From: Stutzerimonas balearica DSM 6083
Lineage (GTDB): Bacteria > Pseudomonadota > Gammaproteobacteria > Pseudomonadales > Pseudomonadaceae
Length of the DNA: 64,000 bases
Direction: 5' to 3'
Assembly: GCF_000818015.1 (NCBI RefSeq)
Contig: NZ_CP007511.1
Span: 4,319,481 to 4,383,480 of the forward strand
Both the position numbers and the translations under genes were made by a program. Shown in pieces: positions 29,163-44,008 of this stretch (the first letter of the stretch is position 1; every line of letters begins with the position of its first letter). Below the pieces are notes generated by a model, which was not told the DNA's origin, did no database searches, and saw only the letters and a program-made list of their open reading frames with translations.

Positions 29163-29734
29163 TGGATTGCCGGCAGCACCTGCGCCAGGCCACCGCGACG
29201 ATGCACCAGCAGGTCGACCGGGCCTTCTCAGCCTTCCAGCTGACCGAGGCGGCAGGTTACCGGGGCTTTCTGTGCGCGCATGCGCGCGTACTGCTGCCGC
29301 TGGAACAGGTGCTCGACGAAGCCGAGGCCGCCCAGCTATTGGCGGACTGGCCACAGCGCCGGCGCAGCGCGGCCTTGCGTGCCGACCTGGCCGATCTCGC
29401 GGTCATGCCGCCGCCGGCTCTGGTGATCGATCGCCCCGCGGATGAGGGTGCACTGTGGGGCCTGCTCTATGTGCTCGAAGGCTCTCGCCTGGGCGGCCGC
29501 GTGCTGACCGAACGGGTTCGTCGGGCCGATCCCGACCAGCCGCTTCGCTACCTCAGCCATGGCAATACGGCGCCGCTGTGGCCCCGTTTTCTGGAAAGCC
29601 TGCAGCGCCGCGCCGCGGCCTGCGACATGGCGAGCATGCAGGCCGCCGCAGTCGTCCTGTTCGCCCGCTTCGCCGAGGCCGCCCGCCAGGAACAGGCGAG
29701 CGCGGCGACGGCAGCGGCTGTGGGATGCAAATAA
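29162..29734 (+). CDS. bphO: Heme oxygenase BphO
   Basis: BphO cleaves heme to biliverdin, the chromophore of the bacteriophytochrome in the same cluster. The 190-residue protein has the proximal histidine in ATATMHQQVDRAFSAF (residue 15) and the distal glycine helix in LLYVLEGSRLGGRVL (about residues 101-115). The start overlaps the kinase stop by one base. The last four residues (VGCK) and the stop codon are encoded by the terminus of the Tn7-like element starting at 29719, so the native C-terminal end was probably replaced. The core domain appears complete, so activity is likely retained. Confidence 0.88.
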   Translation: MDCRQHLRQATATMHQQVDRAFSAFQLTEAAGYRGFLCAHARVLLPLEQVLDEAEAAQLLADWPQRRRSAALRADLADLAVMPPPALVIDRPADEGALWGLLYVLEGSRLGGRVLTERVRRADPDQPLRYLSHGNTAPLWPRFLESLQRRAAACDMASMQAAAVVLFARFAEAARQEQASAATAAAVGCK

Positions 29735-29945
29735 AGTTTCATCCTAACCCTAAAAACAGAGAGAAACGTCGCGCGCTCTCCTATTCATAAAAAATCCCTT
29801 TTATATCAGTATGTTGTGAGCACTTACACCCGAGACTGGATCGTTTTGCCTTTCATGGGAGAATGATTAAGGGCGCTAAAGTATCATCCTAATTTTCGCC
29901 CAGGCTCGAAAAATACGGTAAATGGTGAAAATAAAGATTCATCCT
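29719..29945. repeat. Tn7-like left end with three TnsB-site-like repeats
   Basis: The terminus TGTGGGATGCAAATAAAGT closely resembles the left end of Tn7 (TGTGGGCGGACAATAAAGT). Three direct copies of TAAAG(T/A)(T/A)TCATCCT occur at 29732-29745, 29877-29890 and 29932-29945. Tn7 also has three spaced TnsB sites at its left end. The five bases just outside the end are GCGGC (29714-29718), but the duplicated copy at the other end has been lost. Confidence 0.82.
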
Positions 29946-30240
29946 TTTCCGATGTTGCCCGTTCCAACACGTAAGCAGTCAGTCAGAAAAAACACATAGA
30001 TCCAATCCCTAGCGAGCATTGAGCTCTCTCATCCGTGCCAACTGCTCCAACCCTTGGACGCCCTAAATGCTTACCCAAAAAAATCAACACCTTCTTTTAA
30101 AAACACAATCAAAAATGACTCCCTTATATCCATTTAACCTAAACAGCCTTCCCCCCACTGCACTAGCTAGGGCTCGTAGTTCGGCGCAAGGCTGAAGTCG
30201 CTTGGCTGCTTCGCTGTGCAGATCCATGACCCACTTTCCA
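29946..30240. other. AT-rich element end sequence without a supported gene
   Basis: This stretch is visibly richer in A and T than the rest of the window and separates the left-end repeats from the degP-like gene. One open frame on the minus strand (30084-30266, 60 codons, MWNYNREFDGKWVMDLHS...) overlaps the degP 3' end. It is recognisably protein-like in its middle (HSEAAKRLQPCAELRAL), but I cannot assign it to a family. It may be the remnant of a gene lost from the cargo. Confidence 0.4.
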
Positions 30241-31404
30241 TCAAACTCCCGGTTGTAGTTCCACAAGCATCTCGCGAGTCTTGCCGGCCCGCTCCACTAA
30301 CAAGACAACAACATCTCCAACGTTCTTGTCGTCTAGCCGGGCCTGTAATGTGGTGACGTCGTCGACGGCGATACCGTCGATGCTGATAACGCGATCGCCG
30401 GGCACGATGCCGCCTGCGGTGACCTCGACGCCGACGAGCCCGGCCCTGTGCGCCGCCGAGCCCGGCGTCACGCGCAATACGAATACGCCCTTACTGCCGG
30501 TCAGCGCCTGCAGACGCGCGTTGAGCTGCTCATCCACCTCGATGCCCAGCGCCGGACGGATGTACTTGCCGGTCTTTATGAGTTGCGGCACCACGCGCAT
30601 GACGGTATCGACCGGCACCGCAAAGCCGATGCCGGCCGAGGCGCCAGACGGACTGTAGATGGCGGTATTGATGCCGATCAGCCGCCCAGCCGAATCGAGC
30701 AGCGGGCCACCGGAATTGCCGGGGTTGATAGCGGCGTCGGTCTGGATCAGGTGGTCAATGGCCGGGCCACTGGCGTCGCCGGAAAGGGTGCGGTCAAGCG
30801 CCGAGACGATGCCGGTGGTGAGCGTCCAGTCGAGCCCGAAGGGATTGCCAATGGCAAAGACCTTTTGCCCCACCTTGAGATCGGCACTGGTGCCCACCGG
30901 CACCGCCGGCGGGCGCTTGAAGCCGACGCCAATCTTGAGTACCGCGATGTCGTGCGCAGGACTGGCGCCAACGAGCGCGGCCTGATAATCGCGACCGTCG
31001 GCCAGTTTGACCGTGGCAGACGATGCCCCCTGGATCACGTGGAAGTTGGTCACCACGTGGCCGGCATCGTCCCAGATGAAGCCGGAGCCGGTGCCGCGCG
31101 GCACGGAAAAGACATTGCGGGACCAGACGTCACGCACTAGTTGCGCCGTGGTGATGTAAACCACCGACCCGCGCGATTTCTCGAACAGCTCGATGGTGGT
31201 TTTTTCGTCGGCGGCCAGGTCGCCGCGCGGCGTCACCGTGCGCTCCTGCGTTTCGTGGGGACTGAACCAGGCTTCGATGGCGGGCAGGAACTGCCACAGC
31301 AGCATGAGTGCGGCGATGCAGCCAGTGATGACGAGCCAGCGCCGGATGAATCGATCCGGCGCCGGGCGGCTGTAGGGGTCGGGGTAGGTCACGTCATTCT
31401 CCAT
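30241..31404 (-). CDS. DegP/HtrA-like periplasmic serine protease (TLST cargo)
   Basis: This is a trypsin-like protease with one PDZ domain, anchored by an N-terminal membrane segment (about residues 22-46). The catalytic triad is visible: His in VTNFHVIQ, Asp in AHDIAVLKIG, Ser in NPGNSGGPLLD. The PDZ domain covers roughly 280-380 (IRPALGIEVDEQ onward). At 387 residues with one PDZ domain it is DegS-sized rather than DegP-sized. It is the last gene of the stress operon, 7 bases after the M48 protease gene, and probably removes misfolded envelope proteins. The corresponding gene in related loci is called degP. Confidence 0.88.
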   Translation of the reverse strand: MENDVTYPDPYSRPAPDRFIRRWLVITGCIAALMLLWQFLPAIEAWFSPHETQERTVTPRGDLAADEKTTIELFEKSRGSVVYITTAQLVRDVWSRNVFSVPRGTGSGFIWDDAGHVVTNFHVIQGASSATVKLADGRDYQAALVGASPAHDIAVLKIGVGFKRPPAVPVGTSADLKVGQKVFAIGNPFGLDWTLTTGIVSALDRTLSGDASGPAIDHLIQTDAAINPGNSGGPLLDSAGRLIGINTAIYSPSGASAGIGFAVPVDTVMRVVPQLIKTGKYIRPALGIEVDEQLNARLQALTGSKGVFVLRVTPGSAAHRAGLVGVEVTAGGIVPGDRVISIDGIAVDDVTTLQARLDDKNVGDVVVLLVERAGKTREMLVELQPGV

Positions 31405-31411
31405 GTTGAAA

Positions 31412-42477: not shown

Positions 42478-42850
42478 ATGCCCCCTCAGCGCCGTACCTA
42501 CAGCAAATCTTTCAAGGCCCAGGTCATTCAGGAGTGTTCTGAACCCGGTGCCTCCATCGCAAACATCGCCTTGGGCTACAGCCTCAATGCCAACCTCGTC
42601 CACAAATGGATTCGGCTACATACCCAGAAAACCACGGCTATCCAGCTAGCGTTCATCCCGTTGCCTTCTCAAATGCTCGGCGCGGGATCGCATGCTCAAG
42701 TGCGCTGCTGCGATCATGAGTTTGATCCGGTCCGCCCGTAATAATGGGCACGATCCGTATGCCTATCTCAAGGATGTGCTGACACGGTTGCCGACGCAGC
42801 GGGCGAGTGAGATTGCAGAGCTGCTGCCGCATAGGTGGCATCCGGCATAG
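42478..42850 (+). mobile_element. IS66-family remnant: tnpA 5' part joined to tnpC 3' end
   Basis: ATG at 42478 opens MPPQRRTYSKSFKAQVIQEC, the start of the IS66 accessory protein TnpA, with its HTH (IALGYSLNANLVHKWIRLH) up to about 42660. From about 42683 the sequence jumps to the C-terminus of the IS66 transposase (MSLIRSARNNGHDPYAYLKD, then RASEIAELLPHRW), ending at the TAG at 42848. tnpB and most of tnpC are deleted. It is non-functional. Confidence 0.82.
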
Positions 42851-43110
42851 TCGCGCAAGACGGTTTGCCCGCACGCTTACGTTCAACAGCTCAAGCACCG
42901 TCCGCCCTTCGCGGGATCGTTGCCGCCAGAGCCACACGCCGAACTTTTCCACCTTGTCGTCGCCGGCCTGCGGTCAGTCAGGCAAGCCCAGGTGCTCGTT
43001 TTCCTGCTTGATCGCGTGGTCTCGGATCGCGTGCACCCGGGAAACGGCATCCACGAACTGCCACCATCTCTTAGCTTGGCGGGGTCAAGCCAGCCGGGAT
43101 GCCCGGACGG

Positions 43111-43240
43111 TTACGCTGGTCCGCGCCCAGTTGCGGCACCAAGGTCGGCCGCAGTGATGAAGCGGGTCTTGATGCCGCACTGCGCCGCCCGATAGCGCAG
43201 TGCGATGGCCAGATGCGTCTTGCCGACTCCCAAGGGGCCT
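43111..43240 (-). pseudogene. IS21-family IstB ATPase fragment
   Basis: In one minus-strand frame this short stretch reads [20 protein letters not shown], then [13 protein letters not shown], matching the Walker A region of the IS21 helper ATPase IstB. No istA, start or C-terminal part is present and a stop follows soon after. The flanking sequence (42851-43110 and 43241-43333) shows no gene that I can support, only short broken frames. Confidence 0.7.
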
Positions 43241-43333
43241 ATATCGCCTTGGCACGGCTCCGGGCAGTTTCGGGGAGGCTGCACGCAGTGCGCGACAAGA
43301 TGTATCGCAGCCGAACTGCGGTGTATTCTGCAA

Positions 43334-44008
43334 TCAGCCTAGGGCCGCGCGTATCCGCTGCTTCCAGTCGAACACCCGGGCATGGTTGGCCCCAGATGAG
43401 CTTTCTTTCGGGTGATGCACAGAGTGCAAAGGCTCACAGTACTTCGCCATGGTGCCTGGCCAACGCAACGAGCCTTTCACTGTCTCCCTCAAGATCCTGT
43501 CTATGCATTTTCCTGCCTCAACACCTGCTTTGAAGCCCATGATCCGCGTTGACATGGTCTTCCGGTTGTCTGAGGTATCTATTTCTAGAAGGTAGCGTTG
43601 ATCGCCGTTTTGCAGCTTGAACCTTGCCAGCAGATAGCAGCGTGATTTTTCGTGATCAATCATGTGGTAGCTGCAACGTGGAACGGGCGGCAGAGGCCTC
43701 ACTTCCAGTGCTACCAGCGCAACTCCAGACTCTTGGGTGATTTGTTCAAGAATCTCTCGGAGCAGCGAGAAGCGATCTGCAAGCCGCTCATGCTCGTCCC
43801 CATCACCCTCTCCCTCACCCAATTGTTGGAATTCTCCTGACGCTATGCTGCCCTCGCTCACAGGATCAGCCACGCCGAAGAGTTGGCTTTCTCTGCTCGG
43901 GCATTGCTCGTCGTCGACCTTCTTGCCATGACCGTTGGCACGCTCCCCGTTGTAGGCGATCTTGGTGCGCAGCTGAGCATCAAACGGCCCTCTGCTGAAG
44001 CGAGCGCC
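43334..44008 (-). pseudogene. tnsE: C-terminal part of Tn7-like transposition protein TnsE
   Basis: TnsE directs Tn7 into conjugating plasmids and replication forks. This 224-codon frame has no start of its own: it begins immediately after the glmS stop, in the same frame, as GARFSRGPFDAQLRTKIAYN. The C-terminal half carries the TnsE signature LLEIDTSDNRKTMSTRI, and then SLRWPGTMAKYC and VHHPKE, which align with Tn7 TnsE (LLEVDASDGVKMLSTKV, SLNWPNSLFDQL, VNHPKG). The N-terminal half of TnsE and tnsABCD are lost. A GTG at 43873 could start a shorter peptide, but expression is doubtful. Confidence 0.85.

Follow-up and report, generated by a model that had tools for sequence, protein, structure and literature searches.

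A stress-tolerance locus beside glmS in Stutzerimonas balearica, probably the remnant of a Tn7-like transposon

Introduction

The genes of the locus of heat resistance (LHR), or transmissible locus of stress tolerance (tLST), have been found on a Tn7-like transposon before: PMC8012707 places tdcA and the LHR genes on such an element in the chromosome of Pseudomonas aeruginosa CF39S. Here we describe a tLST island in a 64,000-nucleotide stretch of the Stutzerimonas balearica DSM 6083 chromosome (NZ_CP007511.1, positions 4,319,481 to 4,383,480 of the forward strand), hereafter the window, whose numbering is used throughout. The island lies between bphO and the attTn7 gene glmS, and a Tn7-like transposon of the TnsABCDE type very probably brought it there and later lost its right end and most of its tns genes. 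The link between tLST and Tn7-like elements is thus already in print, and what is new is this dead derivative and its intact sisters; literature searches turned up no publication that we recognised as dealing with this Stutzerimonas element.

Compared by description, not by sequence, the CF39S element resembles the window island in having LHR/tLST genes and a PAS-GGDEF diguanylate cyclase inside a chromosomal Tn7-like transposon, but the window copy lacks tnsABCD and the right end and has a shortened tdcA open reading frame (ORF). According to PMC8012707, TdcA is a thermosensory PAS3-GGDEF protein of 342 aa. The core order dna-hsp20-clpG comes from PMC8290217. Annotated tLST copies of Escherichia coli share with the window the dna-hsp20-clpK core and the downstream protease and redox genes ftsH, trx, kef, psiE, M48 and degP in the same conserved order, which places the island within tLST. 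The window, however, contains a short form: ftsH abuts trx, with no second hsp20, yfdX1/2, hdeD or neighbours of these, and clpK and ftsH are not separated by the cardiolipin-synthase-like gene, which a second genome of the same genus (G029) retains as two ORFs. The E. coli FAM21805 plasmid, which carries LHR2 of PMC5383660, has tnsABCDE-side DNA with 99.8% identity to G029 over 7,090 bp, adjoining hsp20 and clpK, but the plasmid that bears the locus is typed as conjugative. The main text of PMC5383660 uses none of the words Tn7, tns and transpos-, and Tn7 is absent from that of PMC8407380; a survey of Tn7-like cargo (PMC8649781) contains neither Clp, chaperone nor thermo, and 'heat' occurs in it once, in 'heat map'.

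Ends and insertion site of the element

The features that define the insertion are as follows.

29162..29734, plus strand: bphO-like heme oxygenase gene (PF01126, 1.4e-4, 22.2 bits, slightly under the Pfam cut-off of 23)
29714..29718, no strand: left copy of the 5-bp target-site duplication, GCGGC, read directly; its partner is at 43985-43988
29719..29960, plus strand: Tn7-like left end with terminus TGTGGG and TnsB-like sites at 29726-29745, 29871-29890 and 29926-29945
43334..43986, minus strand: tnsE 3' fragment (PF18623 TnsE_C, 4.7e-45, at 43337-43873)
43985..43988, no strand: remnant of the right duplication, CGGC, joined to tnsE through a shared CG and sitting where the 25-bp glmS spacing predicts it
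44009..45967, minus strand: glmS, the attTn7 gene (SIS, 4e-59, and GATase domains; stop codon 44009-44011)

The element begins at 29719 with TGTGGGATGCAAATAAAG. Two of the three 20-bp TnsB-like repeats in the left end are exactly AATAAAGNTTCATCCT, and the third is weaker (70% identity to the reference copy). When up to two mismatches were allowed, AATAAAGNTTCATCCT matched twice in the whole window, both times in the left end and without a mismatch, against 0.01 matches expected in shuffled sequences. In an alignment to G029, identity rises from 65.8% (29500-29718) to 100% (29719-29959), and this step is an independent proof of the left boundary. The Tn7-type left end that had been proposed from the window sequence alone (the original prediction) is therefore borne out by its terminus, its three sites and the identity step. 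The last codons and the stop of bphO now come from the transposon: the protein ends in ...AATAAAVGCK, and joining the flanks without the element gives ...AATAAALC. Because only these final residues differ, the insertion cost bphO almost nothing.

At the other side, no right end or TnsB-like repeats were listed for positions 43000-44100. The tnsE fragment, another part of the original prediction that the TnsE_C match upholds, corresponds to residues 324-540 of an intact TnsE of 540 aa, and it is the sole match to this piece of TnsE in the genome at an E value of 0.001. Relative to G029, the window lacks 7,090 bp (L015:2204-9293) that comprise tnsABCD, tnsE up to codon 323 and the right end; the tnsA, tnsB and tnsC core missing here is present in G029.

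At the right junction tnsE reads ...ATCAAACG, followed by GCCCTC toward glmS, and element sequence stops at the deletion breakpoint, 43986. An insertion 25 bp before the glmS stop predicts that the duplication starts at 43984, and positions 43985-43988 read CGGC. Counted by eye, the distance from the glmS stop to the element edge is 25 bp in the window (inferred edge), in G029 and in G112 (a genome of another Pseudomonadaceae genus), and 24 bp in Pantoea and in G024. Clean 5-bp duplications flank sister elements in G024 (CTTGT; other cargo), Pantoea HJS002 (GGGCC) and G112 (CCCTG). The right duplication in the window thus appears to survive minus its first base, the deletion having finished within one base of the right end while sharing CG with tnsE, although this is a reading of one junction and not proof of a mechanism. 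Because the deletion stops so close to the former right end, it might have begun as a transposase cut there, which we propose with less assurance. Of the boundaries first given for the element (29719 and 44008), the left one is exact and the right one takes in native flank beyond 43986.

The genus comparison covered 56 genomes, all with a match to the glmS query, and 30 glmS loci were fetched, including those of the window and G029. In line with the suggestion that bphO-glmS junctions of relatives be compared, sites that are empty or nearly empty were found at nine of the 30 loci (gaps of 66-164 bp); in one more the gap is 613 bp, and the other 20 have no bphO match in the flank examined.

Intact relatives and alternative origins

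The closest intact relative is the element of G029. Its left end is 100% identical from exactly 29719, an inverted copy of the terminus lies 22.5 kb away, and between them are the same cargo and then tnsE, tnsD, tnsC, tnsB, tnsA and the right end, all beside glmS and bphO as in the window. The five tns products carry the expected domains (PF08722; PF09299; AAA/TniB; TniQ with PF15978 TnsD; PF18623), and the right end, which lies 25 bp from the glmS stop, contains three 20-bp repeats side by side. Cargo identity is 99-100% except at 35589-36025 (97.9%), 36026-38157 (87-95%) and 38158-39499 (98.3%). The differences are the tnsABCDE genes and right end of G029, about 1.2 kb between its ftsH and clpK that encode two phospholipase-D/cardiolipin-synthase-like ORFs and are absent from the window, its incomplete kefC and its tdcA, which is split over three frames.

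Several observations weigh against a simple insertion followed by a deletion. The right duplication in the window is incomplete, with four of five bases, and hence inferred; the flanks of the G029 element carry no matching 5-bp duplication (CGTGG versus ACACC); and 78 bp of kefC (34098-34175) present in the window are missing from G029. The dips in identity to 87-95% at 36026-38157 and to 94.9% in the tnsE piece mean that the element of G029 did not give rise to the window copy by a simple, direct deletion; the two are sisters that have diverged or recombined.

These identities also bear on the idea that the island did not arrive by local transposition but came in with glmS-flanking DNA of an element-bearing donor, exchanged through homologous recombination (as in natural transformation). 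On the glmS side, similarity to G029 is fairly high (82-93%, with 88.7% in the first kilobase of glmS), and the element is much more alike in the two species than their left flanks are, so that an exchange of the region could have taken place. Yet the left flank has only about 66% identity to G029 right up to 29719, and the GCGGC that precedes the left end agrees with the remnant found where the right copy is expected, which speaks for insertion at this very flank; we consider import by recombination improbable.

Transposition into attTn7 gains further weight from other genera. Close relatives of TnsE are encoded at eight loci in named genomes. In Pantoea agglomerans HJS002, Pantoea sp. GD03673 and a Pseudomonadales metagenome-assembled genome (MAG), glmS is followed in order by the right end, tnsABCDE, the helix-turn-helix gene, hsp20 and clpK, the contig of the MAG ending within clpK. 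The left end of the window recurs at 100% reported identity in all three, lying in the MAG on a separate contig. In Pseudomonas sp. A-1, P. alcaligenes NBRC 14159 and P. songnenensis there are tns genes at glmS and no tLST gene in the flank examined, and at the remaining two of the eight loci neither clpK nor glmS was seen in the DNA examined. In G112 an element of about 33.7 kb has the left end and clpK on one side and glmS with tnsABCDE at the other. In two E. coli chromosomes, 873.10 and TC24, one edge reads glmS and then tnsABCDE, and the opposite edge has the left end, on the degP side, close to pstS or lpf-O113; the far edge at glmS was checked in these two, TC24 being read at both edges and not between. 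The search for intact elements with the same left end and cargo at glmS, suggested with the original prediction, was therefore successful in G029, G112 and Pantoea, supplemented by these two E. coli chromosomes. The proposal of a Tn7-like vehicle at attTn7 holds in this sense, although the window copy itself is a fossil from which the whole right end, tnsABCD and most of tnsE have been lost.

The same elements speak to the possibility that tLST is an island bounded by insertion sequences (IS) or borne by an integrase, which landed beside an older, unrelated Tn7 remnant. IS66-like remnants do lie between hsp20 and tnsE, and most E. coli tLST copies have no such left end (16 genomes versus 147 with clpK among 5,426, at a coverage of at least 80% of the query). 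But the spacer that bears the remnants (42041..43333) is 99-100% identical in G029, where it is part of the intact element, and a similar spacing is seen in Pantoea; moreover, in several genera the degP side follows directly on the left end. This origin is exceedingly unlikely and is largely refuted by the intact elements.

Loss of the right side is not confined to the window. G337 keeps the left end and the cargo but is truncated on the right elsewhere than the window is (at element position 14233), so such a loss has happened more than once; no TnsB match was found in G337, and no glmS was seen in the DNA examined.

G029 has a second clpK copy (L077, C1:2408581-2411412) with 91% identity and one internal stop, accompanied by pieces of hsp20 and psiE. 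No left-end match was listed near it in a region that was read in outline.

Gene content

The genes between bphO (plus strand) and glmS (minus strand) form a compact minus-strand run, in agreement with the original prediction; each named gene has a profile match, and ClpK scores above its curated cut-off.

30241..31404, minus strand: DegP/HtrA-like serine protease of tLST (trypsin PF13365, 3.9e-36, and PDZ)
31412..32401, minus strand: M48 metalloprotease (HtpX-like) of tLST (PF01435, 3e-33)
32361..32864, minus strand: PsiE-family protein (PF06146, 1.6e-30)
32861..33652, minus strand: PAS-GGDEF diguanylate cyclase at the tdcA position (PF00990, 6.3e-48; PF08447, 1.4e-13; ORF of 263 aa)
33876..35582, minus strand: KefC/KefB-like cation:proton antiporter (PF00999, 4.1e-57; TrkA_N)
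35589..36029, minus strand: thioredoxin of tLST (PF00085, 6.2e-30)
36026..37906, minus strand: FtsH protease (TIGR01241, 774 bits)
38158..41007, minus strand: ClpK (ClpG_GI) disaggregase (NF033606, 2154.5 bits versus a cut-off of 1900; full length, 1-949)
41103..41675, minus strand: Hsp20 small heat-shock protein at the sHsp20c position (PF00011, 1.9e-29)
41705..42040, minus strand: helix-turn-helix protein upstream of hsp20 (PF12728, 4.7e-7), at the position of 'dna' in the published core
42041..43333, no strand: degenerate spacer with an IS66 TnpA-like remnant (NF047595, 2.4e-17 for 42229-42738, under its cut-off)

By analogy with other bacteria, ClpK and Hsp20 would rescue aggregated protein, and FtsH, the DegP and M48 proteases, thioredoxin and the antiporter would protect the envelope and the redox state; a heat-tolerance function of the cargo in this strain is presumed on the same grounds.

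The gene at the tdcA position is broken in six of the seven copies compared (window 32861-33701, G029, G337, Pantoea, the FAM21805 plasmid, 873.10 and G112), G112 being the only one with a full-length open frame (343 aa from stop to stop). Both PAS_3 and GGDEF are found in the window, and the upstream, N-terminal part of the ORF is in another frame. The copies of G029, G337, FAM21805 and 873.10 are interrupted at a common point, close to residue 177 in the window ORF; G029 has a further break, that of Pantoea lies elsewhere, and that of the window is near the N-terminus. These interruptions could reflect loss of selection or on-off variation. A PDB search with the window PAS-GGDEF sequence returned general diguanylate cyclases.

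Distribution of the vehicle

The original prediction had named the same cargo and flanks in relatives without tns genes or Tn7-like ends as evidence to the contrary, and copies elsewhere answer to this in part. In an even draw of 398 Pseudomonadaceae genomes from a larger group, 18 matched ClpK at the cut-off used, 13 of them with at least 88% identity; the left-end search covered these 13, the other five having 62-65% identity. The left end is present in four (the window, G029, G112 and G337), two of which are right-truncated (the window and G337), and no such left end was found in the other nine. The notion that tLST in relatives is always carried by Tn7 was accordingly rejected. In the genus, where the left-end search used window 29600-29960 as the query, G032, G006, G011 and G027 have clpK, but neither this left end nor this TnsE was found in them.

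Among the 5,426 E. coli genomes, the 16 with at least 80% of the left-end query account for 17 records. Of 60 records listed out of the 149 with any match, seven contain the full left end and 53 only the inner 78 bp beside degP. The neighbourhood was read in 11 of the 12 chromosome records, the twelfth matching an opened one in length and position; the other five of the 17 are plasmids or contigs, outside this reading. The left end lies beside pstS in one chromosome, beside lpf-O113 in four and away from glmS, pstS and lpf in six. Most tLST copies searched are without these ends (nine of the 13 Pseudomonadaceae genomes), which makes Tn7 one vehicle among several.

The 242-bp left end itself occurs at 100% reported identity in G029, G112, G337, G398, G401 and G402. 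On plasmids, window 29719-30240 is matched over its full length with 99.6-99.8% identity in the 20 rows listed, and of 269 records with a match, 60 reach a coverage of at least 80%. Among 72,556 plasmids, at least 80% of the query was covered in 60 for the left end, in 45 for the 7,090-bp tns side and in 1,270 for clpK.

Window 42040-43986, which holds the spacer next to hsp20, has matches in 128 of the 5,426 E. coli genomes; in 44 of the 60 records listed, out of 147, the match sets in past the tnsE part. The spacer would then be older than the Tn7-like vehicle, or else the vehicle has been lost from these islands.

Proposed history

In the history that we propose, a Tn7-like transposon of the TnsABCDE type would have carried the tLST heat/stress operon into attTn7 of a Stutzerimonas chromosome, where TnsD-type targeting would have placed the right end 25 bp beyond the stop codon of glmS and the left end in the last codons of bphO. 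Later, probably in a single deletion, the element would have lost its right end together with tnsA, tnsB, tnsC, tnsD and codons 1-323 of tnsE. The product would be a left end with cargo and a tnsE tail, in which the cargo is held and transposition should be impossible.

Transposition of Tn7-type elements requires both ends. Some 328-bp elements with the same ends and with 5-bp duplications have moved without genes of their own, which would favour continued mobility of the window copy in trans through TnsABC from another Tn7-like element; with no right end seen in this copy, we regard such mobility as very unlikely.

A broader proposal is that this Tn7-like family is a main long-range carrier of tLST in gammaproteobacteria, and that some islands regarded as immobile are its fossils, in which a transposase cut at the right end was followed by end-joining into the tns genes, so that the mobility module was lost and the cargo was frozen beside glmS. 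The window, with its breakpoint no more than one base from the right end, would be a case of this kind. We put this forward as a speculation that is rather unlikely to hold.

The locus ties a stress island relevant to food and hospitals to a defined vehicle with exact ends, and near-identical ends and tns genes occur in several genera, on chromosomes as well as plasmids. It is also a clean example of an element turning into a fixed genomic island, and the left end and tnsE tail provide simple sequence tags for tracking the vehicle.

Other Tn7-like sequences

At L041 (in G047), one of the nine short-gap loci of the genus, a Tn7-like right end stands alone 27 bp from the stop codon of glmS, with hardly anything else between bphO and glmS; it may be a solo end that a further deletion left behind. 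In several members of the genus, for example at L037, L050-L052 and L058, the bases before glmS resemble right ends of other Tn7-like families, with a different one at L048-L049; some are common to several species.

The 328-bp element is a passenger of the Tn7-like family that resembles a miniature inverted-repeat transposable element. Both of its termini are identical to the Tn7-like end described here, and it is too short for tns genes. It was found in G050 (C2:64673-65000) and G026 (C160:106511-106838), in both on a contig other than that of glmS, and in L064 and L066 (1501-1828; P. alcaligenes NBRC 14159), with the 5-bp duplications AACCT, GAAGT and CCCGC. Matches over at least 80% of the query occur in 11 of the 72,556 plasmids (14 have any match; Pseudomonas and Stutzerimonas), and two of the 398 family genomes contain the element at an E value of 1e-60.

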